Source: Cytophaga sp. FL35
GTDB taxonomy: Bacteria > Bacteroidota > Bacteroidia > Flavobacteriales > Flavobacteriaceae
Assembly: GCF_014349235.1 (NCBI RefSeq)
Contig: NZ_JACSOH010000019.1
Span: 1 to 64,000 of the forward strand
Direction of reading: 5' to 3'
Length of the DNA: 64,000 nucleotides
The position numbers and the translations under genes are program-made. Positions within the stretch are counted from its first letter, which is position 1. Every line of letters starts with the position of its first letter. Below the pieces are notes generated by a model, which worked only from the letters and a program-made list of their open reading frames with translations, made no database searches and had not been told where the DNA came from. Shown here piece after piece: positions 31,956-45,287 of this stretch.

Positions 31956-32028
31956 AAAAGGTGTCAATTCCGTTTTTATAGGTCATTTTATAAAATGAAG
32001 CGAACGAGCTGATGTCTTCAAGTAGTTT
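31956..32028 (+). promoter_or_regulatory. Three-block regulatory element upstream of the starch susC
   Basis: AAAAGGTGTCA (31956-31966), CATTTTATAA (31984-31993) and AGTAGTTT (32021-32028) recur in the same order before the SusA-like gene at 42386-42460. The last two blocks are separated by 27 bases in both places. The third block resembles a -7 box (TAGTTTTA here). The first two are probably the binding sites of the membrane AraC-type starch regulator at 40447. The ATG follows 59 bases after the third block. Confidence 0.65.
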
Positions 32029-32087
32029 TAATTCCGATTTAATGGAGACTTTAAATCATAAACTACTAACTTAAATTCAACTCACAC

Positions 32088-35069
32088 ATGCGAGGGAAAA
32101 TTACAATGTTTTTCTTGGTGCTCTTCTGTGCACCATTATTTGCATTGGCGCAGCAAGAGGTGACCGGTACGGTCATTGACGATTTGGGACTACCCTTACC
32201 CGGCGCTTCTATTGTTTTAAAGGGAACTACCAACGGTGTTACCACAGATTTTGATGGAAAGTATTCCATACAGGCCAGCGAAGGCAATGTATTGGTATTT
32301 TCATACATAGGTCTAAAAACACAAGAGGTAACAGTAACATCTAATGTAATAGATGTTTCTATGGAAAGTGATATATCACAATTAGATGAAGTGGTTATCA
32401 TTGGTTATGGCTCCACCACAAAAAAGGATGCCACAGGAGCTGTGCAATTATTAACGGCAGAAGACTTAAACAAAGGTGCTATTACAACCGCAGACCAAAT
32501 GATAACTGGTAAATCTGCCGGTGTACGGGTGGTCAACAATGGCGGTGACCCCGATGCAGGCATCAACATTCGTATACGTGGAGGCTCCTCTCTTAACGCG
32601 AACAATAGTCCATTGATTGTAATTGACGGGGTACCGTTATCCAATCAGAATCCTGCTGGTCAGGCCAACCCTTTAACGCTCATCAACCCAAATGATATTG
32701 AATCGTTTTCGGTATTAAAAGATGCATCATCTACGGCAATCTATGGTTCTAGGGCATCAAACGGTGTAATTATTATTACTACTAAGTCCGGTACCAAGGG
32801 AGCACCGCAATTCAATTTCTCGTCCAATGTTCAAGTAGGTACCTTAAGCAATCAGATAGATATTTTTGAATCGGCTGAATATGTTGATTTTATTCAGAAC
32901 ACCTATCCTGAAAGTGCAAATTTATTGGGCCTGAACGGTACTATCTACGATACGAATTGGCAGGAGGAAATTTATAGAACTTCCTACACCATCAATAATA
33001 ACTTAACTGCGAGGGGAAATCTTTTTAATAAGATTCCGGTCAGGGCTTCTTTCGGGCATTCAGAAATCGCCGGTATTCTAAAGGAGTCGCAATTAGACAG
33101 ATATACGGTCTCCTTGAACATCGCTCCCGAGTTCTTTGACCAACACTTAAAGGTGACAATCAACGCCAAGGGAATCGCCACGGAAAAAGATCAACCCGAT
33201 ACGGGGGCCATTGGAAGTGCCTTAACGGCGAACCCGACATTACCAATTTATGACCCCCAAGGAGGCATTTTTGGTGGATTCTACCAATTGACCGATGATC
33301 AAGGTATTGTAGGCCCAGCGAATCCATTGGCTTTACTGAAGCAACGAGAACGAAATGAAGATGCAGACCGTTTTATTGGGAGTGCCGAGTTTAGGTACAA
33401 AATTCATGGCTTTGAAGACTTGACGGCAGTAATTAACACTGGTATCGACTATTCGGAATCCAGCATTAACGAATATTTCTTGCCAAGCGCCGTTGGGGCA
33501 TATACTGTATTTGATGGACTCCCCATATTTAATAACTTCAGCGAAAGCTTTAGGGAAAATCAGATAAAGAGAGATCATCTTTTAGATGCCTATTTAAATT
33601 ATGCAAGGGATTTTGAAGGGGCGGTCAATAGATTGGACATACAAGCAGGTTATGGATATCAGAATTTTACCACCCAAGGAACTACTTTTCCAACTACTAC
33701 AGAAAACGGTTTTAGGGAATCTCAGCAGCCTTTTAAATATTACAATATTTTAAACCTTCAATCCTATTTTGCTAGGGCCAACTTAACTCTTTTTGACAGT
33801 TTTTTGTTGACCGCTTCGGTAAGGGCAGATGCTTCCTCTTTGTTTGCCAAAGATGATAGGTGGGGGTACTTTCCCGCAGCAGCTTTGGCTTGGAAATTGG
33901 ATGAAGAGAATTTCCTAAGTGATACCACTTGGATTGATCAATTAAAGCTGAGATTGGGATGGGGTCTCACAGGTCAACAGGATATCACAGGTCCAGTGGG
34001 CTATTTCCCGTACACTGCATTATATGATGATGGTGATCCAACGGTGAGTTATATGTTCGGTGATCAATTGATAACCACCTACAGGGCCAATGCCTTCAAC
34101 CCTAATCTAACTTGGGAAAAGACTTCAACCTACAATGTGGGTATCGATTTCAATTTTTTCTCCAATATGTTAAGCGGTAGTGTAGATGGTTATATCAGAA
34201 ATACTACGGATTTATTGGCAGAGGTGCCCCAATCAGAAGGAGCTTTAAGAAACCGGTTCGTAAGTAATGTGGGTGAAACGGAAAGCAAAGGTTTTGAGGG
34301 TGCACTTCAGTTTAGGCCGGTACAAGCGGATGGTTTCACCCTTGAGTTCAATGCCAATGCAGCTTTTAATGAGACCTATGTTACCGATTTAGATAATATC
34401 ACACAGTTTTCTAGTGGTGGAGGTATCGGTCGTGGAACGGGTGTCAATATTGGGCAAACAGCAGTTGGTGAGCGTAACCGTACCTTCTGGTTGTATGAGC
34501 AAGTGTATGATGCCAATGGTAAAGTGATTGAAGACGCCTTTGTAGACAAGAATGGAGATGGTTTAATTTCTGATGCGGACAGAAGATTTATTCCTTTTGA
34601 GCCTAAGTGGACCTACGGTTTCGGAACCTTTGTTCAGTATAAAAACCTTGATTTAACAGCCAATTTAAGAGGGCAATTAGGGGGCAATGTTTACAATGCC
34701 AATTTGTTGAATAGGGGCTTTGCTTTGGCGGCCATTCCGCAGACCGATTCTGGTTTTATTGACAATACTTTGAACCTTTTTGATGGTTCGCAGTACGATG
34801 GGTTCCCAGAGATGCCGTCCGATACGCAGGCCCTTTCTGATTTTTACCTATCGGATGCTTCTTTCTTACGATTGGATAATATCACCCTTGGCTACAATTT
34901 TACACCCTTTAAGGATAAAAAGTTAAGCCTGAGATTCTATGGCTCTGCCAACAACCTTTTTGTTATTACGGATTATGACGGTTTGGACCCCGAAAATTTT
35001 GACGGTATAGAAACTTCGCCATATGCGCGTCCACGTACCTACACTTTAGGATTAAACCTTGACTTCTAA
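32088..35069 (+). CDS. susC: SusC-family TonB-dependent transporter of the starch locus
   Basis: The 993-residue outer-membrane channel has a signal peptide (ending LFALAQ), a carboxypeptidase-regulatory-like domain (about 23-100, GTTNGVTTDFDGKY), a plug (about 105-225, VLKDASSTAIYGSRASNGV) and a barrel ending NLDF. Its partners (SusD, SusE-like, two GH13 enzymes and a starch-binding regulator) point to maltooligosaccharide or starch uptake. It is preceded by a 687-base intergenic region with a regulatory element shared with the SusA-like gene. The SusD start lies 13 bases after its stop. Confidence 0.96.
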   Translation: MRGKITMFFLVLFCAPLFALAQQEVTGTVIDDLGLPLPGASIVLKGTTNGVTTDFDGKYSIQASEGNVLVFSYIGLKTQEVTVTSNVIDVSMESDISQLDEVVIIGYGSTTKKDATGAVQLLTAEDLNKGAITTADQMITGKSAGVRVVNNGGDPDAGINIRIRGGSSLNANNSPLIVIDGVPLSNQNPAGQANPLTLINPNDIESFSVLKDASSTAIYGSRASNGVIIITTKSGTKGAPQFNFSSNVQVGTLSNQIDIFESAEYVDFIQNTYPESANLLGLNGTIYDTNWQEEIYRTSYTINNNLTARGNLFNKIPVRASFGHSEIAGILKESQLDRYTVSLNIAPEFFDQHLKVTINAKGIATEKDQPDTGAIGSALTANPTLPIYDPQGGIFGGFYQLTDDQGIVGPANPLALLKQRERNEDADRFIGSAEFRYKIHGFEDLTAVINTGIDYSESSINEYFLPSAVGAYTVFDGLPIFNNFSESFRENQIKRDHLLDAYLNYARDFEGAVNRLDIQAGYGYQNFTTQGTTFPTTTENGFRESQQPFKYYNILNLQSYFARANLTLFDSFLLTASVRADASSLFAKDDRWGYFPAAALAWKLDEENFLSDTTWIDQLKLRLGWGLTGQQDITGPVGYFPYTALYDDGDPTVSYMFGDQLITTYRANAFNPNLTWEKTSTYNVGIDFNFFSNMLSGSVDGYIRNTTDLLAEVPQSEGALRNRFVSNVGETESKGFEGALQFRPVQADGFTLEFNANAAFNETYVTDLDNITQFSSGGGIGRGTGVNIGQTAVGERNRTFWLYEQVYDANGKVIEDAFVDKNGDGLISDADRRFIPFEPKWTYGFGTFVQYKNLDLTANLRGQLGGNVYNANLLNRGFALAAIPQTDSGFIDNTLNLFDGSQYDGFPEMPSDTQALSDFYLSDASFLRLDNITLGYNFTPFKDKKLSLRFYGSANNLFVITDYDGLDPENFDGIETSPYARPRTYTLGLNLDF

Positions 35070-35082
35070 AAACGAACTACAG

Positions 35083-36642
35083 ATGATTAAAAAGATAATA
35101 TTCGGACTATTCACAGCTACTGTTTTGGTAGGATGTATAGATGATTTGGATACCGAGCCAAGGGTGCAGAAAAGTATCGATAACCTATTGGAAGAAGATG
35201 AGAATGCAGCCTTAGGTATTCTTGGTAAACTCTATGGTGGCTTGGCTCTGCACGGAATCGGTATTCCTGGCAGTGATAACCAAGAAGCGGATATTGCAGG
35301 GGACGACCCAGGAGAAACCGTATTTTTCAGAGCTATTTGGAACATGCAAGAGCTTACTACCGATATAGCCAAAAATCGCTGGGGTGATGGAGGTTTGGAC
35401 CCTTTAACCACCGCTACCAATTGGGTGCCTACCAATAAGTTCTTTGGTTACCTCTACAACAGAAGTTATTTCAATATTGCGCAGATCAATAACTTTATTA
35501 TAGACGTTCAAAAGGCGGATGAGCCAAACGCGGATTTATATGTGGCGGAAGCCCGTTTTCTACGTTCCCTTTTCTACTATTATTTGATGGACACCTTTGG
35601 AGGTGTGGTCATCGTAACCGAAGAAGATGGGGTTACGGGCGTAAGAAGAGCGCGCAACACCCGAACAGAAGTTTTTAACTTTGTGGAGAGCGAATTGTTG
35701 GCCGTAGAGGAGACCATACCTGCGAGCAATGAATACGGTAGGGCAAATAAAGCCGCAGTTCACATGTTATTGGCCAAGATTTACTTAAATGCGGAAGTGT
35801 ATACCGGTACCGCTAGATATGCAGAAGCGCTTACCTATAGTGAAAAAGTGATTTTGGAGTCCCCTTTTACGTTGGATGATGATTACCAGTCCATTTTTCA
35901 GGGTGATAATTTTACCTCACCAGAAATCATTTTTCCAATTATTGGGGATAGAAATACGGTTCAGTCCTACGGAACAGCAACCTACTTAACCAATGGTAGC
36001 TTGGGAGATACTACTATGCCCATAGCAGAGTTCGGAAATTCGGACAGTTGGTTTGGTCACCGTTGTACACCGGCCATTTATGGCTTGTTTGGCGATCTGG
36101 AGACCACAGCGGATAGTAGAGCCATTTTCTGGACAGAGGGGCATAGTTATGAAATGGACGATTACCGTACCTGGGAAAGTGGTTACCCAACTACTAAATT
36201 CCAAAATCAATATTCCGATGGTAGTTCTGGGCAGAGTAGTTTCTCCGATACCGATATACCCTTATTCCGTTTGGGAGATGCTTATTTAATGTACGCTGAG
36301 GCATTTTTTAGAGGTGGAGGTGGTTCCGCGGCACAGGCGGTAGATTACATTAATGCGCTAAGAGAAAGAGCTTACGGTGATGCTAGTGGAAATATCACAG
36401 AAGCAGATTTAACTGAGCAGTTCTTGATAGATGAGCGCGCACGCGAATTGTACTATGAAGGTCATAGAAGACAAGACCTAATTCGTTTTGGTCGCTTTAC
36501 TGGAGGAACTTACAACTGGCCTTGGAAAGGTAATGTGGCAGATGGTACTTCCATTCCAGACCATTACAACTTGTTTCCATTTCCTTTAGAAGCATTACAA
36601 GCAAATCCATTATTGGAACAAAACCCAGGCTATACTAACTAA
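35083..36642 (+). CDS. susD: SusD-family starch-binding lipoprotein
   Basis: The start at 35083 (MIKKIIFGLF...VLVGC, Cys18) gives a clean lipoprotein signal; an upstream frame to 35059 overlaps the SusC stop. The acidic IDD after the Cys suits surface export. The 519-residue product shows family motifs ARFLRSLFYYYLMDTFGGV, RLGDAYLMYAEAF and IDERARELYYEGHRRQDLIRFG. The insertion of aromatic-rich loops and the synteny with amylases indicate alpha-glucan capture with the SusC channel. Confidence 0.95.
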   Translation: MIKKIIFGLFTATVLVGCIDDLDTEPRVQKSIDNLLEEDENAALGILGKLYGGLALHGIGIPGSDNQEADIAGDDPGETVFFRAIWNMQELTTDIAKNRWGDGGLDPLTTATNWVPTNKFFGYLYNRSYFNIAQINNFIIDVQKADEPNADLYVAEARFLRSLFYYYLMDTFGGVVIVTEEDGVTGVRRARNTRTEVFNFVESELLAVEETIPASNEYGRANKAAVHMLLAKIYLNAEVYTGTARYAEALTYSEKVILESPFTLDDDYQSIFQGDNFTSPEIIFPIIGDRNTVQSYGTATYLTNGSLGDTTMPIAEFGNSDSWFGHRCTPAIYGLFGDLETTADSRAIFWTEGHSYEMDDYRTWESGYPTTKFQNQYSDGSSGQSSFSDTDIPLFRLGDAYLMYAEAFFRGGGGSAAQAVDYINALRERAYGDASGNITEADLTEQFLIDERARELYYEGHRRQDLIRFGRFTGGTYNWPWKGNVADGTSIPDHYNLFPFPLEALQANPLLEQNPGYTN

Positions 36643-36653
36643 AAACTAAGACG

Positions 36654-37967
36654 ATGAAGAAAAATTTAGCATTTATATATGCATCCATCGTAGCAATGGC
36701 ACTTTTGGTGACAGGTTGTAGCGATGATGATGAAAACATAAGAGTAAGTAGTGAGGCAAGTACACAGCTTACATTATCTTCTACAGATGCTCTAGAATTA
36801 ACTAGAGATTTGACAGGAGAAACAGTTTTAAGCCTTAATTGGACTGCTCCAGATTTTGGCTTTACTGGTGCAGTGCCTACTTATAACGTGGTTGTAGGGG
36901 TAGATGCAGCTACAGAGGCTATGCCAGCCCGTGTAAATGTGGGTAACGTGCTAAGCAAAGATTTTTTAGCAGAAGAACTTAATGAGGCCGTGGCAGATGC
37001 AGGTGCTTTAGCTGGCCTAGAAAACGAAGTTAAAGTTTGGGTAGAAGCTATGTTAGGTAAAGATGTAGTGGCAGCTTCTGCAGCACAGACCCTAACAATT
37101 ACAGGGTATGCAACTACGTTCGATTTAAGTTCGCCTTGGGGTCTAGTAGGGTCTGCAACACCTAACGGTTGGGATGGTCCAGACGTACCTGTTTACAGCA
37201 CAGCAATCGCTAACGAATTTGTGGCTTATGTTACGCTTGTAGATGGGGAGCTTAAAATCCGTGAAAACAACGATTGGACCGTTAATTACGGGGATACTGG
37301 TGCCGATGGTGTCTTAGATTTAGACGGAGACAACATACAAGTAACAGCTGGCACTTACAAGGTAATGTTTAGTTTAAACGACTTTAGCTATAGCATAGAG
37401 CCATTTACTTGGGGCTTGGTTGGTGACGCTACACCAAACGGTTGGGATGGTCCAGATACGCCCTTAACGTATGATTCTTCTTCTGACCAATGGAGGGCAG
37501 TGGTAACTCTTACAGATGGTGAAATGAAGTTTAGACAAAACAATGATTGGACTGTAAACTTTGGTGATACCGGTGCAGATGGTACTATTGAAACCAATGG
37601 TGATAATATTATGGTAGAAGCTGGTAACTATCTAGTTTCGGTAGACTTTACCAATAACCTATATACTTTAGAACCTATTGATATTTGGGGCTTGGTTGGT
37701 GATGCTGCTCCCAATGGGTGGGACGGTCCTAACGTACGTTTTACACCAGATTATGCCAACGAAGGCGTTTGGATTTTGGAAAATGTTACGTTGTTAGACG
37801 GTGAAATTAAATTTCGTACCAATGATGCTTGGGATTTTAATTATGGAGATGATGGTAATGACGATACGTTAGAGGTAGACGGAGCCAACATTCCAGTAAG
37901 TGCAGGTACGTATACCATAACATTGTATTTGGCAGATGCCGATAACCCAACCTACACTATCGAATAA
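36654..37967 (+). CDS. susE: SusE/SusF-like starch-binding lipoprotein with three tandem modules
   Basis: A 437-residue lipoprotein (lipobox ...LVTGC, Cys22, followed by SDDDE, a surface-export type signal). An N-terminal SusE-like Ig domain (about 30-155) is followed by three starch-binding modules starting at Trp162, Trp253 and Trp345, each opening WGLVG-A-PNGWDGP and containing a W-x-N-x-GD segment. Such proteins hold starch at the surface for SusCD. The modules are also highly similar to the tail of the amylase encoded 12 bases downstream. Confidence 0.93.
   Translation: MKKNLAFIYASIVAMALLVTGCSDDDENIRVSSEASTQLTLSSTDALELTRDLTGETVLSLNWTAPDFGFTGAVPTYNVVVGVDAATEAMPARVNVGNVLSKDFLAEELNEAVADAGALAGLENEVKVWVEAMLGKDVVAASAAQTLTITGYATTFDLSSPWGLVGSATPNGWDGPDVPVYSTAIANEFVAYVTLVDGELKIRENNDWTVNYGDTGADGVLDLDGDNIQVTAGTYKVMFSLNDFSYSIEPFTWGLVGDATPNGWDGPDTPLTYDSSSDQWRAVVTLTDGEMKFRQNNDWTVNFGDTGADGTIETNGDNIMVEAGNYLVSVDFTNNLYTLEPIDIWGLVGDAAPNGWDGPNVRFTPDYANEGVWILENVTLLDGEIKFRTNDAWDFNYGDDGNDDTLEVDGANIPVSAGTYTITLYLADADNPTYTIE
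37137..37967 (+). repeat. Three tandem starch-binding module repeats (about 92 codons each)
   Basis: The repeat units begin at 37137, 37410 and 37686. Units one and two share the run GGTTGGGATGGTCCAGA at DNA level. Two further related copies and one diverged copy form the tail of the next gene. The similarity at DNA level suggests duplication that is fairly recent, or gene conversion. Confidence 0.8.
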
Positions 37968-37978
37968 ATCAAGAAATT

Positions 37979-40264
37979 ATGAAAATCAAAAAATATATAC
38001 ATCTAAGTCTGGCTGCGTTAACCTTTGTGTTCGCAGCTTGTACTAACGATGATTTTTCGCCCTTAAAAGTTAAAGAAGCTAACGATGCAGAAGATTTACC
38101 TTCTGGCTCGGCAGCCGGTAGAACAGATGCATTAGTACCGGGTAATGGTGTTATGATGCAAGCCTTTTATTGGGACGTTACCGAGGGGGGAATTTGGTGG
38201 AACAATGTAGAATCTAAACTAGACAGCTGGGCAGCCAACGGAATTGATGCTATTTGGATTCCGCCAATCTCTAAAGGTCAAAGTGGTGGTTTTTCTATGG
38301 GGTACGACCCGGCGGATTACTTCGATTTTGGTGACTTTCAACAGCATGGAACTGTAGAAACCCGTTTTGGTAATCGTGCAGAATTGGAAAATATGATTGG
38401 TACTGCGCACGAGAATAATATTGCGGTTATTGCAGACATCGTACTAAACCACAATTCTGGTGGACAGTTAGAGTACAACGAGTTTAGACAAATTGAAACC
38501 TATACCTTGTTTGAACCGGCTTCTGGATTATTCAATAGAACTTGGTTGAACTACTTGCCTAATGCAGAAAATTTAAAGGATGAAGGTAGATTTGGTGGTT
38601 TTCCAGACTTGGATTTAAAGAATGACTATGTGCGCGATTGGTTATGGCAGTCCGAAGAATCGGTAGCCAATTACTACATGAATACGTTGAAAATTGACGG
38701 TTGGAGATTCGATTTTGTAAAAGGTTTTTCTCCAGATGTTGTTAAAGATTGGATAGCTACCGTTGGAGGTTATAGCGTAGGTGAAAATTTTGATGGCAAT
38801 GTAGAAGGTGTAGTTGGTCCATGGGTTGAAGCCTCTGGTGCCAACGCTTTTGATTTTCCTAACTTCTTTAATATGCGCAATGCCTTTTTAAACGGTAATT
38901 TAAACGAGTTGGTAAAACCTAGCTTACTATCTACCATGCCAGAGAAAGCGGTAACTTTTGTGGGTAACCATGATACGGAAGCTAGAGATGGTAGTAATGA
39001 ATTTCCAGATGCGTTTGAAACCCATGCTTATGCATATATTATGAGTGCTCCAGGATATCCTTGTGTATTCTATTCGCACTATGAGGATAGCGGTGAAGAG
39101 CAAAAAGCTAAAATCAACCAGTTAATTCAGATTCGTTCAGAATTAGCTGCTGGGGATTGGACAGTGAATCATGTTTCTAACCAAGAGTTTGTGGCTACTC
39201 GTGGTGGCGATGCAGAAAAACCAGGCTTGGTATTATATATTAACTTAAGTGGAGAAGAAGTATCCAGAGAAGTACAAACGCATTGGGCTAGTGCCAATAT
39301 TAAAGATTACACAGAAGAATATTTAATTTTTGAGCAATCAGATGCTAGTGGTTTGGTTACATTAAAAGCCCCAGCCAACGGTTATGCCATTTGGGCAGCT
39401 ACAGAAGACGAACAGTTGGCTTTCCCAGAAGTATTATATGTGCCAGGAGGTTACCAAGGATGGGACCCATCATCTGCTCCTGCCTTAAATGCTGTAGAAT
39501 TACCAAACTTAGCCGGTACGTTTAGCGGTCACGTTCGTTTTACAGAAGCAAGTAACGAATTTAAATTTACAGATGCTCCAAATTGGGATAATGGAATTTA
39601 CGCAGATGCTGGAGATGGTACTACAGGTGTATTGGATTCGCCTGGTAATAACATAGTTTTGGCAGGACCTCAAGATTATGAGATAAATGTTGACTTGGCC
39701 AATAATACCTGGTCTGCCAACACTTGGGCAATTATAGGTAGTTCTACGCCTAACGGTTGGGACGATCCAGATACGGATATGTCTTATGATTTTGATAGAA
39801 ACGTTTGGACGGTAACAACTACGCTTACAGATGGTGAATTAAAATTCCGAGCCAATAATGGATGGGATGTAAACCTAGGGGATACTGGCGCAGATGGTGT
39901 GTTGGATAATGGTGGTGATAATATTGCTGTAACTGCGGGTAGCTACCAAATAGACTTAGATGTGGCAAACAATTCATTTACCCTTGGTAATTGGGGTGTT
40001 ATAGGTAGTGCTACGCCTAGTGGTTGGGATGCTGATACCAACATGACATATGATACTATTAATCAAGTTTGGACCATTACCTTGGATTTAGTGGCTGGTG
40101 AAATGAAATTTAGATTTAATGATGATTGGGCCGTTAATTTAGGAGATAATAACGCAGATGGTAGTGTAGAACAAGATGGAGCAAATATTGCCGTTGCCGC
40201 TGCTGGAAATTATACCCTTACATTGAACTTAAATGCAAATACCTTTAATATCGTTCAGAATTAA
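37979..40264 (+). CDS. Surface GH13 alpha-amylase with three C-terminal SusE-type starch-binding modules
   Basis: A 761-residue lipoprotein (Cys21, then TNDD, probably surface exposed). The GH13 barrel spans about 55-470, with region I ADIVLNHN, region II GWRFDF (nucleophile Asp245), region III GENFDG (acid/base Glu269) and region IV VGNHDTE (Asp332). Three modules follow: a diverged one (about 485-582) and two at Trp583 and Trp672 that are close to those of SusE. It should cut bound starch at the cell surface, the role of SusG in Bacteroides. The fusion of SusE modules to an amylase is unlike the internal CBM58 arrangement of SusG. A terminator follows at 40306. Confidence 0.95.
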   Translation: MKIKKYIHLSLAALTFVFAACTNDDFSPLKVKEANDAEDLPSGSAAGRTDALVPGNGVMMQAFYWDVTEGGIWWNNVESKLDSWAANGIDAIWIPPISKGQSGGFSMGYDPADYFDFGDFQQHGTVETRFGNRAELENMIGTAHENNIAVIADIVLNHNSGGQLEYNEFRQIETYTLFEPASGLFNRTWLNYLPNAENLKDEGRFGGFPDLDLKNDYVRDWLWQSEESVANYYMNTLKIDGWRFDFVKGFSPDVVKDWIATVGGYSVGENFDGNVEGVVGPWVEASGANAFDFPNFFNMRNAFLNGNLNELVKPSLLSTMPEKAVTFVGNHDTEARDGSNEFPDAFETHAYAYIMSAPGYPCVFYSHYEDSGEEQKAKINQLIQIRSELAAGDWTVNHVSNQEFVATRGGDAEKPGLVLYINLSGEEVSREVQTHWASANIKDYTEEYLIFEQSDASGLVTLKAPANGYAIWAATEDEQLAFPEVLYVPGGYQGWDPSSAPALNAVELPNLAGTFSGHVRFTEASNEFKFTDAPNWDNGIYADAGDGTTGVLDSPGNNIVLAGPQDYEINVDLANNTWSANTWAIIGSSTPNGWDDPDTDMSYDFDRNVWTVTTTLTDGELKFRANNGWDVNLGDTGADGVLDNGGDNIAVTAGSYQIDLDVANNSFTLGNWGVIGSATPSGWDADTNMTYDTINQVWTITLDLVAGEMKFRFNDDWAVNLGDNNADGSVEQDGANIAVAAAGNYTLTLNLNANTFNIVQN
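39725..40261 (+). repeat. Two SusE-type module repeats in the amylase tail
   Basis: Units begin at 39725 and 39992 and encode W(A/G)(I/V)IGS-TP-GWD openings with NNGWDVNLGDTGADG or NDDWAVNLGDNNADG. They align with the three units of the upstream SusE-like gene, including near-identical stretches such as CCTAACGGTTGGGA. Confidence 0.75.
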
Positions 40265-40305
40265 AGATAGAAGATAGTTGGTTGTTTATTAGTTTTAATT
40301 GAGAG

Positions 40306-40333
40306 GGGTTGCCGTAATTGGCAACCCTTTTTT
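40306..40333 (+). terminator. Rho-independent terminator of the starch susCDE-amylase operon
   Basis: GGGTTGCC pairs with GGCAACCC around a six-base loop and is followed by a run of seven T. It separates the structural operon from the regulator gene. Confidence 0.9.
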
Positions 40334-40446: not shown

Positions 40447-42375
40447 ATGGACGCTAATAGTATTCCTAATAAAGGTAGCATGGTAGGTCTTGAAATCTTT
40501 TTAAAGATTTCGAGAGCTATGTTTTTAATTGCCTTTTTCCTACTTGGCGCGTCAAAATTAGGTGCCCAGACTACATTTGTGGTGGATTATGTACCGCCCG
40601 AAACAAGCGTTAACGATACCCTATTCCTAACAGGCTCGTTTAATGACTGGAATCCATCGGATAAAAAGTATGCTTTCAATAGACAAGCTGATGGAACGTA
40701 TAGGCTTTCTGATAAGCGGTTCTTGAATTCTTGGATTTCCTATAAAATTACGAGAGGTAGCTGGGAAACTGTGGAGGTACAAAAAGACGGTCAACCTCTG
40801 AAAGTTAGAAAGCTTTCCTTCAATCAAGTCGGTCCGCAAACCGAAACCCTACAGGTAGCAGGATGGACGGATAAATTGAATACAGCTGCGGAAAAACAAT
40901 GGCTGTCCATCAAAGTGGTAGACATTCCTCAGAATACGCCCCCCAACACATCCCTTTACATCTGTGGTAATTTTAATGGATGGGTTCCTGGTGATGAGCG
41001 TTACAGGTTAAAATCTAAGGGAAACGGTGATTATGAGATTGCCATACCTGTGTATTATGATAGGTTGGAGTATAAATTCACCAGGGGAAATTGGTCCACC
41101 GTAGAAGGAAACAGTTACGGTAGACCGAGACCCAATAGAATTATTGAACTCTCTGAGGTCAAGCCCGATCAGGTGGTTGAGGACACCATTTCTTACTGGG
41201 AAGACCAATCGTACGGTATTTTCAATCCGTATACCTTACTATTGGTTTTAACCGCACTCCAAGGATTTTTCCTCATTTTCATCATTAATTCCAATCAAAA
41301 CAATAACAAATGGGCCAACCAAGCGCTTAGTGTGCTCATCTTTGTAATCTCCTTTACATTAATTGCCAGGGTGGTTATTTACGACCGAGTTATTTATACC
41401 AATTATCCAAAACTATCCTTGTTGACAGATTTGGTTTTTTTCCTATATGGGCCAACACTATTAATTTATATCAAACGATTACTGCATCATGCCAAAAAAA
41501 CAATTTGGGACTATTGGCCACATTATATACCCTTTCTGGTGCAATGCATTATTTATATCAGTTTCTTTTTTAAACCTACACACACCTTTATAGAGCAGAA
41601 TTTGTTTCAGTCTATGGATTCTCCTCCCTATTCTGTATATGAGGTGATTGTATTGCTGGCATTAGTATTTAATGTTTGGTATTGGTTTCGGATTAAGGGT
41701 ATTATCAGAAACTACTTTAAAAATATTGAGCATACCTTTTCCACGGACCAGAATATTAGATATCTCAATGCAATTCTAATCATATTAGGGATTTGCCTGA
41801 TATTATGGACGGTCATTGTTTTAGTGGACGTATACGGTACGTTTACGGAGCAACCTGTCAATACTCTTACTAATTTCTTTATTGATGGTATTTGGATAGT
41901 TTTCTCAGTAGTGGTATTCTTTTTGGGGTATTTTGCTATCAAACAGCCACAGATTTTTAGGATGCCGGAGCAAGAAGACGAGGAGGCACCAGAAGCAGAG
42001 AAGCCGCAAATGGAATCTGAAGAGCTTGAAGAACTAAAGGAAGCATTACATAAAATGATGACCGAAGAGCAGGTTTATTTGAATCCAGAGTTAAGTTTGC
42101 CTGAATTGGCGGACCGGATGAATTCAAATGTTCACACGCTTTCCCGGACCATAAATTCCGGTTTCAACAAGAATTTTAGGGATTTTGTGAATCACTACCG
42201 AATTCAGGATTTTATTGAAAGGGCACAAGACGAAAAATATAAGAACCAAACCTTTTTGGCCATCGCTCTGGCAGTTGGTTTTAATTCCAAATCCTCATTT
42301 AATCGGTCTTTTAAAAAGGTTACGGATAAGTCGCCGCGCGAATATTTTAACGATTTGGAGCAAGCATCCACTTAG
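40447..42375 (+). CDS. Membrane-spanning AraC-type regulator with two extracytoplasmic starch-binding-like domains
   Basis: A 642-residue protein of unusual build. A signal peptide or anchor (about 22-41, ending LGAQ) is followed by two tandem CBM20/48-like domains: about 42-125 with LFLTGSFNDWNPSDKKY, and about 150-240 with LYICGNFNGWVPGDERY. Seven hydrophobic helices follow (about 258-500, for example FNPYTLLLVLTALQGFFLIF and FFIDGIWIVFSVVVFFLGYF), then an acidic helical linker and an AraC helix-turn-helix (about 545-640, LSLPELADRMNSNVHTLSR and FLAIALAVGFNSKSSFNRSF). The topology puts the sugar-binding part outside and the DNA-binding part inside. It likely senses maltooligosaccharide in the periplasm and activates the flanking promoters that share a three-block element. 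It replaces SusR, which is absent. Confidence 0.9.
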   Translation: MDANSIPNKGSMVGLEIFLKISRAMFLIAFFLLGASKLGAQTTFVVDYVPPETSVNDTLFLTGSFNDWNPSDKKYAFNRQADGTYRLSDKRFLNSWISYKITRGSWETVEVQKDGQPLKVRKLSFNQVGPQTETLQVAGWTDKLNTAAEKQWLSIKVVDIPQNTPPNTSLYICGNFNGWVPGDERYRLKSKGNGDYEIAIPVYYDRLEYKFTRGNWSTVEGNSYGRPRPNRIIELSEVKPDQVVEDTISYWEDQSYGIFNPYTLLLVLTALQGFFLIFIINSNQNNNKWANQALSVLIFVISFTLIARVVIYDRVIYTNYPKLSLLTDLVFFLYGPTLLIYIKRLLHHAKKTIWDYWPHYIPFLVQCIIYISFFFKPTHTFIEQNLFQSMDSPPYSVYEVIVLLALVFNVWYWFRIKGIIRNYFKNIEHTFSTDQNIRYLNAILIILGICLILWTVIVLVDVYGTFTEQPVNTLTNFFIDGIWIVFSVVVFFLGYFAIKQPQIFRMPEQEDEEAPEAEKPQMESEELEELKEALHKMMTEEQVYLNPELSLPELADRMNSNVHTLSRTINSGFNKNFRDFVNHYRIQDFIERAQDEKYKNQTFLAIALAVGFNSKSSFNRSFKKVTDKSPREYFNDLEQAST

Positions 42376-42385
42376 ATGTCCTTAT

Positions 42386-42460
42386 AAAAGGTGTCATTTT
42401 ATGGATAAGACTGCCCATTTTATAATTTAAGTCGATACCACGGCAGGTTCTCAGTAGTTT
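42386..42460 (+). promoter_or_regulatory. Three-block regulatory element upstream of the SusA-like gene
   Basis: AAAAGGTGTCA (42386-42396), CATTTTATAA (42416-42425) and AGTAGTTT (42453-42460) repeat the arrangement at 31956-32028. The first spacer is 19 bases here against 17 there; the second spacer is 27 bases in both. The third block gives TAGTTTAG, a relaxed -7 box, 30 bases before the ATG. The element begins 10 bases after the regulator stop codon. Confidence 0.65.
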
Positions 42461-42490
42461 AGCTATCTCAACTTAAATTGAAATACTACA

Positions 42491-44329
42491 ATGAAAACTG
42501 CAACCACCCTGCTAATGGCATTGGTGTTTTTCTGTACACACCTTACCGCCCAAAATTCCATAGAACGAGTAGAACCGCCCAATTGGTGGGTGGGTATGGA
42601 ATATAATTCGGTAGAATTGTTGATTTATGGAAAAGACATTGCGGCCAACGATGTAAGACTAAAAACCTATGAAAACGTACAATTACAAAGCGTTAAAAAA
42701 GCAGCCAACCCCAATTACCTATTTGTAACCATTGCAATAGGTGAACAGGCCCAACCGGGAAATTTGCAATTGGACTTCCGGAAAAATGGCACTACTGAAT
42801 TCGTTCAATCCTATGAGCTGAAAGCACGTGAAAACAACCGTAAAAACATAGCCGGTTTTAATAGTGCTGATGCCATTTACTTAATAACGCCAGACCGTTT
42901 TGTAAATGGAGACCCAGAAAATGACGCAGTTGTGGGCATGGTAGAACAACCCAACCGAAAAGATAAAGGCGGTAGACACGGCGGGGATGTGCAAGGTATT
43001 GTTAATAGTTTAGATGCGATTAAGGATATGGGATTTACCGCCATTTGGACCAATCCTATCCTCGAAAACAACATGCCCAGCTATAGCTATCATGGGTATG
43101 CCATCACGGATTTTTATAAGGTAGACCCACGTTACGGAAGCAATGCGTCTTATAAAGAGATGGTAGAGAAAGCTTCTGAAAAGGGAATGAAGGTAATTAT
43201 GGATATGATTGCTAACCACTGTGGATTGGAACATTGGTGGATGAAAGATTTACCATCGGAAGATTGGATCAACCAATGGGATACCTACACCCAAACCAAT
43301 CATAAAAAAACGGTAGTGTTGGACCCCTATGCTACTAAAAAGGACACCAAAGAATTTTTTGATGGCTGGTTTGTGCCCACCATGCCAGATTTAAATCAGC
43401 GTAATGCGTCTATGGCCAACTATTTAATACAAAATACCTTGTGGTGGATAGAATATTCTGGTATTGCCGGTATTCGTATGGATACCTATCCATATCCAGA
43501 TATGTATTTTATGCGAGATTGGACGGCCGCTGTGATGAAAGAATATCCAGATTTTAATATAGTAGGGGAAGAGTGGGTGCTGCGCCCCACTATTGTATCG
43601 TATTGGCAAAAAGGCAAGGAGAATACCAATGGCTACACTTCTGAATTAAAAAGTGTGATGGATTTTCCAATTCAACACGCCTTGAGTACCTCTTTAAACG
43701 ACGCCCGTTCTTGGAATGCGGTTTATGAGGAGTTGGGTCAAGATTATTTATATCCAGACCCAAATAACTTGGTGGTTTTTCCAGATAATCATGATATGAG
43801 CCGTATTTACACCCAACTAAATGAAGATGCAGATTTGGTAAAATTAGCATTGACGTATGTTGCTACCGTTCGCGGTATACCTCAAATTTATTATGGTACG
43901 GAAATTTTAATGGGAAACAAAGGCACCGAAGATCATGGCATTATCAGAACGGATTATCCTGGCGGATGGGCAAAAGATAAAGTAAATGCCTTCACCGGAG
44001 ACGGACTCACAAAAGAACAAAAAGATGCAAAAGCTTATTTGAGCAAGTTATTTAATTGGCGAAAAAATGCTGAGGTTATCCACAACGGAAAGCTTATCCA
44101 TTTTGCTCCAAAGGATAACATTTATGTTTATTTTAGGTACAATGAGCACAAAAAGGTAATGGTTGTTTTAAATAAAGATGCGAAAGCCAAGCTATTAGAT
44201 GTTGCTGATTATCAGGAAATATTAAAAGGTAGTGTAAATGGTAAAGATGTGCTAACCGGTAAACAATTTAAGAATGCCAATACGATCAATGTACCTGCAA
44301 AAACGGCCATGATCATTGAGATAGACTAA
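42491..44329 (+). CDS. susA: Periplasmic GH13 cyclomaltodextrinase/neopullulanase-like enzyme
   Basis: A 612-residue secreted enzyme with a signal peptide (about 1-20, ending THLTAQ), an N-terminal cyclomaltodextrinase domain (about 22-115, IERVEPPNWWVGM), a GH13 barrel and a C-terminal beta domain. Catalytic residues are Asp331 (GIRMDTYPYP), Glu360 (VGEEW) and Asp435 (FPDNHDMSR). It should degrade maltooligosaccharides imported by the SusCD pair, as SusA does. It has its own promoter with the element shared with the starch susC. A terminator at 44356 follows. Confidence 0.95.
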   Translation: MKTATTLLMALVFFCTHLTAQNSIERVEPPNWWVGMEYNSVELLIYGKDIAANDVRLKTYENVQLQSVKKAANPNYLFVTIAIGEQAQPGNLQLDFRKNGTTEFVQSYELKARENNRKNIAGFNSADAIYLITPDRFVNGDPENDAVVGMVEQPNRKDKGGRHGGDVQGIVNSLDAIKDMGFTAIWTNPILENNMPSYSYHGYAITDFYKVDPRYGSNASYKEMVEKASEKGMKVIMDMIANHCGLEHWWMKDLPSEDWINQWDTYTQTNHKKTVVLDPYATKKDTKEFFDGWFVPTMPDLNQRNASMANYLIQNTLWWIEYSGIAGIRMDTYPYPDMYFMRDWTAAVMKEYPDFNIVGEEWVLRPTIVSYWQKGKENTNGYTSELKSVMDFPIQHALSTSLNDARSWNAVYEELGQDYLYPDPNNLVVFPDNHDMSRIYTQLNEDADLVKLALTYVATVRGIPQIYYGTEILMGNKGTEDHGIIRTDYPGGWAKDKVNAFTGDGLTKEQKDAKAYLSKLFNWRKNAEVIHNGKLIHFAPKDNIYVYFRYNEHKKVMVVLNKDAKAKLLDVADYQEILKGSVNGKDVLTGKQFKNANTINVPAKTAMIIEID

Positions 44330-44384: not shown

Positions 44385-45287
44385 TTAATTTAACTGCCTA
44401 AACTCCTTAGGCGAATGCCCCACCTGCTTTTTAAAAAGTCGGCTAAAATGTTGTGGGTATTTAAAGCCCAGTTCATATGCAATTTCACTAACGGATTTAT
44501 CAGGATTAAACACTTTGCTTTTAGCTACATCTATAAGTTTGGTCTGTATGTATTCTTGGGCAGAGTTACCCGTTTCTTTTTTAACCAAATCCCCAAAATA
44601 GTTGGACGATAAATTTAACTGGTCCGCAAAATAACCCACAGAGGGTAAACCATATTTTTGGGGCTTTTCAGAGTTTAAATAATCGTTCAATAAACTATCG
44701 AACTTTTGTAAGGCACTTTGATGCGGAATTTCCCGGGTCAAGAACTGTCGGTCGTAAAAACGAAGGGAATAATCCAACAGCAATTCAATATTGCTAACAA
44801 TCAATTTTTTACTGTGCTTATCCAGGTTCTGTTCCAACTCAAACTGAATCTTGTCCATAACACTCAACACCAACGCCTGTTCCCGTTCAGATAAATGCAA
44901 AGCTTCCTTAACCCCATATGAAAAGTATTTGTAGCTCTTCATCTTGCGGTCCAAGTCTGAGCCCAACAATAAATCTGGATGAAAAATTAGTGCATACCCT
45001 TTGGGTACGTAATTGGGGTCATAGCTAATTCCGGCCTGTTGTCCGGGCGCTAAAAACACCATGGAACCTTCGTCAAAATCATATGCACCACCTCCGTATT
45101 TTAGCTTGCAATTTTTGGCCATTTTTAGAAAAATGGCATAGCAATCAAAGTGTAATCCATCATAAGAATAATCTGGGTAGGCCGTGGTTTTTTCGTAATC
45201 TAAAATTCCCACCAAAGGATGTGTAGGTTTCGTATTTCGCCATGCAAAATAATCAGCAACAGATTTAATGTGGTAAATGTTTTCCAT
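44385..45287 (-). CDS. AraC-family transcriptional regulator
   Basis: A 300-residue cytoplasmic regulator. The N-terminal half is cupin-like (about 30-110, YDFDEGSMVFLAPGQQ). The C-terminal AraC pair of helix-turn-helix motifs covers about 205-298 (SVGYFADQLNLSSNYFGDLV, VSEIAYELGFKYPQHFSRLF). It is divergent from an eight-gene redox operon. Direct repeats of ATCCGTAAT at 45343 and 45364, upstream of the operon promoter, are its likely binding sites. The inducer may be an aldehyde or quinone judging from the operon. Confidence 0.92.
   Translation of the reverse strand: MENIYHIKSVADYFAWRNTKPTHPLVGILDYEKTTAYPDYSYDGLHFDCYAIFLKMAKNCKLKYGGGAYDFDEGSMVFLAPGQQAGISYDPNYVPKGYALIFHPDLLLGSDLDRKMKSYKYFSYGVKEALHLSEREQALVLSVMDKIQFELEQNLDKHSKKLIVSNIELLLDYSLRFYDRQFLTREIPHQSALQKFDSLLNDYLNSEKPQKYGLPSVGYFADQLNLSSNYFGDLVKKETGNSAQEYIQTKLIDVAKSKVFNPDKSVSEIAYELGFKYPQHFSRLFKKQVGHSPKEFRQLN

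Follow-up and report, generated by a model that had tools for sequence, protein, structure and literature searches.

A predicted single-chain membrane regulator with starch-binding-like domains and an AraC-type output at a Sus-like locus of Cytophaga sp. FL35

The 64,000-nucleotide stretch of Cytophaga sp. FL35 DNA analysed here (contig NZ_JACSOH010000019.1, positions 1 to 64,000; hereafter the window), from the genome of a marine bacterium that belongs by lineage to the Flavobacteriaceae, contains on its forward strand an open frame (40447..42375) for a protein of 642 amino acids. In this protein a signal segment, two domains resembling carbohydrate-binding modules (CBMs), seven transmembrane (TM) helices and an AraC-type helix-turn-helix (HTH) domain follow one another in a single chain. 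We propose, with a probability of roughly 0.77, that it is a one-component inner-membrane regulator of a Sus-like starch locus, with a periplasmic CBM20/48-like sensor of maltooligosaccharides, a seven-helix relay and an AraC domain that activates susC and susA. Computation supports the architecture, the sensor fold, the topology, the linkage of the genes, and the operator together with its link to the regulator family; what we infer is the identity of the ligand, activation rather than repression, constitutive expression of the regulator, and how the signal passes the membrane.

The signal segment (residues 1-41, 40447..40569, terminating in LGAQ, with its hydrophobic core at residues 17-35 by hydropathy) is followed by the first CBM-like domain (residues 42-140, 40570..40866), the second CBM-like domain (residues 150-255, 40894..41211), the hydrophobic helices (residues 262-496, 41230..41934), an acidic linker seen in the sequence (about residues 506-523, 41962..42015) and the AraC-type double HTH (residues 554-635, 42106..42351), all on the forward strand. 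These parts, including two G-x-FN-x-W motifs, had been listed in the initial annotation of this DNA, and all of them were found again in the open frame, the hydropathy scan and the Pfam matches; the motifs are LFLTGSFNDW at residues 59-68 and LYICGNFNGW at residues 170-179. The true start of the gene may be a later ATG, at Met12 or Met25. The closest named relative of the protein is from Euzebyella saccharophila, with 92% identity.

An AlphaFold2 model of residues 42-254, built from eight sequences (predicted local distance difference test (pLDDT) 78.9, predicted TM-score 0.63), was compared with known structures using Foldseek, and matched the starch-binding structures of CBM26, CBM41, CGTase and CBM20, in agreement with the initial annotation, which had expected a carbohydrate-binding fold in residues 42-240. 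VIA-align superposed the second domain on the CBM20 of STBD1 solved with maltotetraose (Z 10.0, root-mean-square deviation 2.5 A, 90 residues). The pair thus has an immunoglobulin-like starch-binding fold of the CBM20/CBM48 kind, the first domain having been examined only within the pair. The pattern FNxW...YK[FI]TRG[NS]W is mostly conserved among the aligned homologues. In the second domain W179, K210 and W216 are conserved in all 14 homologues; in the first, W68 and W106 are conserved in all 13 homologues that have it and K100 in 11 of the 13, being Leu in L014 and L015. We take these positions to be the sugar-contact W-K-W set of CBM20/48. Conservation is higher in the second domain, and it is this domain that a single-domain relative from the Cytophagales (L044) retains. 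On the modelled structure, the N-terminal half of the regulator is supported as a starch-binding-like fold. It shares with CBM20, CBM48 and CBM26 modules the fold and the association with alpha-glucan enzymes, and differs from them in its sub-cut-off Pfam scores and in being fused to a regulator, not to an enzyme.

The CBM-like unit is also found outside regulators. Proteins of about 550-595 amino acids (L078, L080, L082-L085) carry some four to five tandem copies by motif count, and the unit is present on many proteins with differing C-terminal parts (L051-L076, L086-L091), several of which look, by eye, like a hydrolase or esterase.

The hydropathy scan placed TM segments at residues 262-280, 293-311, 324-342, 357-375, 396-414, 442-460 and 478-496, in addition to the N-terminal segment at 17-35. 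In the window protein the loops predicted to lie on the inner side hold 10 Lys and Arg residues and those on the outer side 3; in 14 of 14 aligned homologues, too, the inner loops have the larger number. This argues for a CBM pair that most likely faces the periplasm and an AraC domain in the cytoplasm, with the N-terminus out and the C-terminus in, as the initial annotation had it; its placement of the sensor "outside" holds with respect to the inner membrane and should read periplasm. With the sensor in the periplasm, the ligand would be maltooligosaccharides imported by SusC.

The C-terminal domain matches HTH_18 at residues 554-635 (E 3e-13, 50.1 bits, cut-off 33.6) and HTH_AraC (31 bits, cut-off 26.6), and in structure comparison it matched AraC-domain structures. 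HTH_18 also scored over its cut-off in all seven distant relatives scanned. A double HTH above curated cut-offs classifies the protein as an AraC-family transcription factor, and the combination of an AraC HTH with six to seven TM segments, free of kinase and receiver, as a membrane-bound one-component regulator. The Pfam scan detected no histidine kinase, phosphoacceptor or receiver domain in the protein; it was listed to E 10, yet HMMER filters discard most matches above about 0.1. A hybrid two-component system and a 7TMR-DISM receptor were considered and set aside, as no histidine kinase or receiver domain, and no 7TMR-DISM match, was listed at E up to 10. Matches to Tetraspanin, BacA, YolD, DUF373 and Pox_A14 fell under their cut-offs, on hydrophobic or acidic segments, and were likewise discarded. 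A paralogue of 374 amino acids (L017) has a sub-threshold match to MASE10 (E 0.0024) in its membrane part, possibly a hint to the origin of the seven helices.

The initial annotation had stated that the promoters of the two sets of starch genes share an element, and a composite element of the form YCANNTTATANNNTRRRKCGA-N19-TANNTT does precede both susC and susA. Upstream of susC it lies at 31981..32030 (GGTCATTTTATAAAATGAAGCGA - N19 - TAGTTTTA) and upstream of the susA-like gene at 42413..42462 (GCCCATTTTATAATTTAAGTCGA - N19 - TAGTTTAG), both on the forward strand and both with 19 bases between the second and third blocks. An alignment of nine susC upstream regions contains one nearly invariant block, GGTCATTTTATAnnnTGAnnCGA, followed by TAnTTTTA, while most of the surrounding sequence has diverged; twelve aligned susA upstream regions contain a block that matches it, and twelve aligned upstream regions of the regulator gene showed no conserved operator block. 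The downstream box resembles TAnnTTTG, which we take to be the Bacteroidetes -7 consensus. The spacing between CGA and TA is 19 bases in the 20 distinct sites collected at that spacing and in all 17 sites of the pattern search described below. The near-palindrome CATTTTATAAAATG within the element suggests that the predicted operator would be bound by two protomers.

A search of the genome that contains the window for the 21-base pattern gave exact matches at two positions, 31983 and 42415. A third site, one mismatch away from the pattern (C21, L143), was treated as chance, since the genes around it have no evident sugar role and a backwards control gave four matches at that stringency. Of 397 genomes of the family, 10 contain the composite pattern, namely exactly the nine with a full-length regulator and G181. 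As the pattern was derived from regulator-bearing genomes, its presence in all nine of them follows from how it was built. The informative parts of the search are its near-absence elsewhere, the positions of the sites and the behaviour of paralogues. All 17 sites in the nine genomes are at susC or susA promoters, and the missing eighteenth, the susA site of G164, is one base off the pattern. The reversed pattern was found in 1 of 397 genomes. In G181 the site stands between a gene for a 7TM-AraC protein that lacks CBM-like domains and a DUF6448 gene (L150:801-2754).

The regulator gene is also linked to alpha-glucan genes. Counting that of the window, all 13 distinct close loci have a susA-like gene directly 3' of it. 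We scanned 14 neighbourhoods of CBM-bearing regulators (seven close and seven distant, the window and L038-L043 being excluded), and GH13 genes were found in 11 of them and GH13 or SusC/D genes in 12. The neighbourhoods of CBM-less 7TM-AraC paralogues, by comparison, contained GH13 in 0 of 20 and a SusC match in 2 of 20. These 20 were drawn from the 24 genomes with a CBM-less match only, with G059, G102, G179, G218 and second copies omitted, and three of them (L127, L128, L139) were shorter on one side; three of the five GH13 queries were taken from CBM-bearing loci (L044, L093, L095), which somewhat favours those loci. Among the seven distant loci, GH13 is present in L044, L093, L094 and L095 and only SusC-SusD-SusE in L092. 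The amylases of L044 and L095 and a GH31 of L093 are confirmed by Pfam matches, the GH13 assignments of L093 and L094 being from blastp. Because both the gene and the operator are linked to alpha-glucan genes, regulation of such genes by this protein is supported. In the remaining two distant loci, the neighbours of the CBM-bearing regulator include a short-chain dehydrogenase (L096) and a type III glutamine synthetase (L097).

With respect to distribution, 33 of 397 genomes of the family sample match the regulator at E 1e-40 or better. Nine of these encode full-length proteins with both CBM-like domains; in the other 24 the listed matches start at about residue 250 and the open frames have 369-414 codons. 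At E 1e-25, a sample of 395 genomes of the order gave matches to the membrane end of the model solely in three genomes already known from the close group. Six further CBM-bearing 7TM-AraC proteins were recognised in 395 genomes of the phylum sample (L048, L049, L050) and 395 of the class sample (L077, L079, L081), a lower bound, as only matches assigned a locus were inspected; each has one or two CBM motifs by motif count. At the cut-off applied, hydropathy gave seven segments after the first in L048 and L049, six in L077, L079 and L081, and four in all in L050. The helix count of seven is therefore firm only for the close group. A short relative of 382 amino acids from G120 (L099:4896-6044, forward strand), with 26% identity to the regulator, neighbours a CBM-bearing one.

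A phylogeny of the TM-AraC part places all 17 CBM-bearing rows on one side of a branch with support 93/82, recovered in 93% of bootstrap trees, and none of 500 label shuffles gave a value as low as that of this clade. Rows from same or near loci (L009, L010, L012, L013, L043) and short rows (L019, L024, L030) were excluded, and long branches (L044, L037) leave single placements unsure. Duplicates in our samples are L038 and G347 (same locus), L040 and G164 (same locus), and L126 and L128 (near copies from one genus).

A matrix trained on the 20 starch-locus sites only was run on the 20 paralogue loci, and in 8 of them (L121, L122, L124, L125, L126, L128, L132 and L134) its best match lay at most 100 bases from the regulator gene and on its strand. 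Over 300 column-shuffled matrices this count averaged 0.15, with a maximum of 3, and the reversed matrix gave 0; removing the -7 box lowered the count to 3, and the -7 box alone gave 2. The site precedes a secreted beta-propeller-type gene 3' of the regulator in 6 of the 8 loci, and the regulator itself in the other 2. In the beta-propeller-type gene of L125, SGL, NHL and a secretion tail score over their Pfam cut-offs, the other such genes being judged by eye. The pairing of a CBM-less 7TM-AraC regulator, this operator and a secreted beta-propeller-type gene is one we have not seen described as a regulator and its target. Since paralogue loci carry the element before other genes, it goes with the type of regulator and not with one kind of target.

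A widened matrix, with hand-set weights and a spacing range of 18-20, adds nine sites of the paralogue type (L121-L126, L132, L134, L150; the L123 site ranked second in its locus). Its best match lies 99-143 bases 3' of the regulator in three of the seven distant CBM-bearing loci (L044, L092, L094), where it stands before an amylase, susC or susA gene. Shuffling this matrix 200 times gave counts of 0 in 158 cases, 1 in 41 and 2 in 1, and never 3. We regard the element shared by the susC and susA promoters as genuine and as one that accompanies this protein family.

Under the proposed mechanism, maltooligosaccharides would enter the periplasm via SusC/SusD and bind the tandem CBM20/48-like pair, and the seven-helix domain would relay sugar binding to the cytoplasmic AraC-type domain, the signal passing by ligand-induced dimerisation or rearrangement. 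The AraC domain would bind the composite operator, a near-palindrome YCAnTTTATAAAnTGR followed by RKCGA, and both promoters, susC and susA, would be activated; at each of them 19 bases separate the end of the operator from a TAnnTTTG-like -7 box downstream. We also consider it fairly probable that Bacteroidota possess a modular class of 7TM-AraC regulators, each a single chain, all of which recognise one composite promoter operator made up of the near-palindrome, RKCGA, a gap of 19 bases and TAnnTTTG, with the attached outer part setting specificity. One clade would have gained starch-binding domains and taken over alpha-glucan loci as the counterpart of SusR outside Bacteroides, and CBM-less members would use this operator to control a gene for a secreted beta-propeller of the NHL/SGL type or a DUF6448 gene.

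Several observations weigh against the proposal of a starch-sensing regulator, besides the circularity of the pattern search noted above. The CBM-like domains of the window protein score below the Pfam cut-offs (17.8 bits versus 27 for X25_BaPul_like, 16.6 versus 26.8 for AMPK1_CBM) and so fall outside the Pfam-defined CBM20/CBM48; matches in the homologues are likewise weak but recurrent (at E up to 0.1, AMPK1_CBM in 11, X25 in 10 and CBM53 in 7 of 14). A profile of the CBM pair found no starch-binding chain in a sequence search of the PDB, and the Foldseek list that contains the starch-binding structures also includes the Bacillus anthracis TIE protein, adhesins, pilins and a leucine-rich-repeat protein. 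In the full-length model pLDDT is mostly below 50 across the TM region. Two of the seven distant CBM-bearing loci (L096, L097) have neither alpha-glucan genes nor the operator nearby. The starch-trained matrices had their best match at the operator position in 0 of the 7 distant loci, and the widened matrix gave no such match in L093, L095, L096 and L097, of which L093 and L095 have GH13. Sugar binding, DNA binding and the direction of control are predictions here.

These points leave room for other explanations. The protein could regulate the starch genes while its CBM-like domains serve to dock it to some partner in the periplasm, be it SusA, a glycan or a different protein, with the seven-helix domain itself reading the signal, as it has to in paralogues that lack CBMs. 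That many paralogues consist of the 7TM-AraC body without a CBM, and that 8 of 20 have the same type of operator, indicates that the membrane body can work without one. We nevertheless consider docking unlikely, as GH13 genes stand beside 11 of 14 regulators with CBMs and beside none of the 20 that lack them, and the W/K/W set is for the most part conserved, as expected if the CBMs set specificity. The long acidic linker between TM7 and the HTH would suit a protease that frees the AraC domain on a signal, in place of DNA binding by the intact membrane protein; we find this somewhat less likely still, and it agrees with the proposed mechanism in all but the last step.

Another factor might bind the susC/susA element, either a global regulator or the product of the second AraC-family gene that adjoins the locus (44385-45287), leaving the membrane protein to act elsewhere. 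An orthologue of this gene is found in only 1 of the 12 other distinct close loci, that of Croceivirga (L040/L104), within the stretch examined, and the gene was rejected as the owner of the element on this ground. The AraC-type gene found at this place in L039 is a different one (31% over 81 residues). In L099 and L100 the matches are weak (22-24%) and fall on a 7TM-AraC relative or on the regulator, and none was seen in 8 of the 12. The element, moreover, follows the 7TM-AraC family, including paralogues with other targets, and we hold the involvement of another factor to be the most improbable of these explanations.

In Bacteroides thetaiotaomicron, SusR is described as a membrane regulator whose single chain joins a sensor in the periplasm to a DNA-binding part in the cytoplasm; it controls susA and susBCDEFG in response to maltose and probably also maltooligosaccharides, and its transcript level is comparable in all conditions tested (PMC3878776, PMC11633381). 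In the available portions of these reports, its DNA-binding domain has no significant similarity to known factors, and its motif is a direct repeat with a long spacer (PMC3878776, PMC11633381). The window protein resembles SusR, as portrayed there, in its single-chain membrane design with the sensor and the DNA-binding part on opposite sides, and operators and linkage predict susA and the susC operon as its targets; unlike SusR, it combines an AraC HTH_18 with CBM-like sensors and seven TM helices, and its predicted operator is nearly palindromic. Going by the published description of the DNA-binding domain (PMC3878776, in the passages available), membership in the SusR (BT3705) family is unlikely, and the protein is most likely an analogue of SusR on a different chassis. 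The hybrid two-component systems of Bacteroides also join a membrane glycan sensor to an AraC-type output in one chain, according to the same passages (PMC3878776); the window regulator shares this arrangement and differs in having no detected kinase, phosphoacceptor or receiver.

Saccharophagus degradans is a gammaproteobacterium. Membrane-bound AraC-type regulators with six to seven TM segments were described in this species in 2008, adjoining cellulase genes, and sensing of extracellular polysaccharide was hypothesised (PMC2386152). They are like the window regulator in carrying an AraC HTH and six to seven TM segments on one chain beside polysaccharide-degradation genes. They differ in being encoded beside cellulase/glucosidase genes, and the sections of that paper at hand mention no extracytoplasmic carbohydrate-binding domain or operator for them (PMC2386152). 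The initial annotation had known of no described regulator of this build; as far as the available text of these sources goes, this stands for the fusion with CBMs and not for the membrane-bound AraC-type chassis with six to seven TM segments (PMC2386152) or the single-chain membrane design, known from SusR (PMC3878776). In the open-licence literature searched, we found no description of a CBM-7TM-AraC regulator, of its link to a Sus-like locus outside Bacteroides, or of this operator.

To our knowledge, the regulators of starch loci outside Bacteroides have been little studied. In the excerpts available, LacI-type regulators are predicted at the sus loci of some Bacteroides species without SusR (PMC11633381), and a marine study suggests that it could be adaptive for Bacteroidota to have polysaccharide utilization loci in which no regulator is recognisable (PMC10108472). 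The protein described here offers a specific candidate, for which the sensor, the membrane domain, the DNA site and two target promoters can all be named. What appears to be new is the fusion of starch-binding domains to a membrane AraC chassis, the Sus-like link outside Bacteroides and the shared operator, membrane-bound AraC-type one-component regulators being known. If the proposal is true, periplasmic sugar binding would be linked directly to transcription within one polypeptide, the operator would allow regulon prediction for related proteins, and the protein would offer a chassis to study signal transfer from a seven-helix domain to an AraC domain.

The regulator gene lies between the starch operon and the susA-like gene, which confirms its position in the initial annotation. 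The operon, on the forward strand, consists of genes for a susC-like TonB-linked transporter (32088..35069, a predicted target), a susD-like lipoprotein (35059..36642, with the start probably at an ATG near 35083, from orthologue lengths), a susE-like starch-binding protein (36654..37967) and a GH13 alpha-amylase with SusE/F-like C-terminal modules (37979..40264). The susA-like GH13 cyclomaltodextrinase/neopullulanase (42491..44329, forward strand) is the predicted second target. A terminator-like hairpin with a T-run (40301..40332, forward strand; -21.9 kcal/mol, z -4.7 by folding) separates the sus operon from the regulator gene. Similar blocks are visible by eye upstream of close orthologues, and a generic terminator scan did not list the hairpin. 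As the regulator gene lies beyond this hairpin and lacks the operator, it is probably transcribed separately and constitutively.

The second AraC-family gene, at 44385-45287 on the reverse strand, has no predicted link to the promoter element. It is 98% identical in the Croceivirga locus, and no orthologue was seen at the locus in Euzebyella saccharophila or Zobellia.

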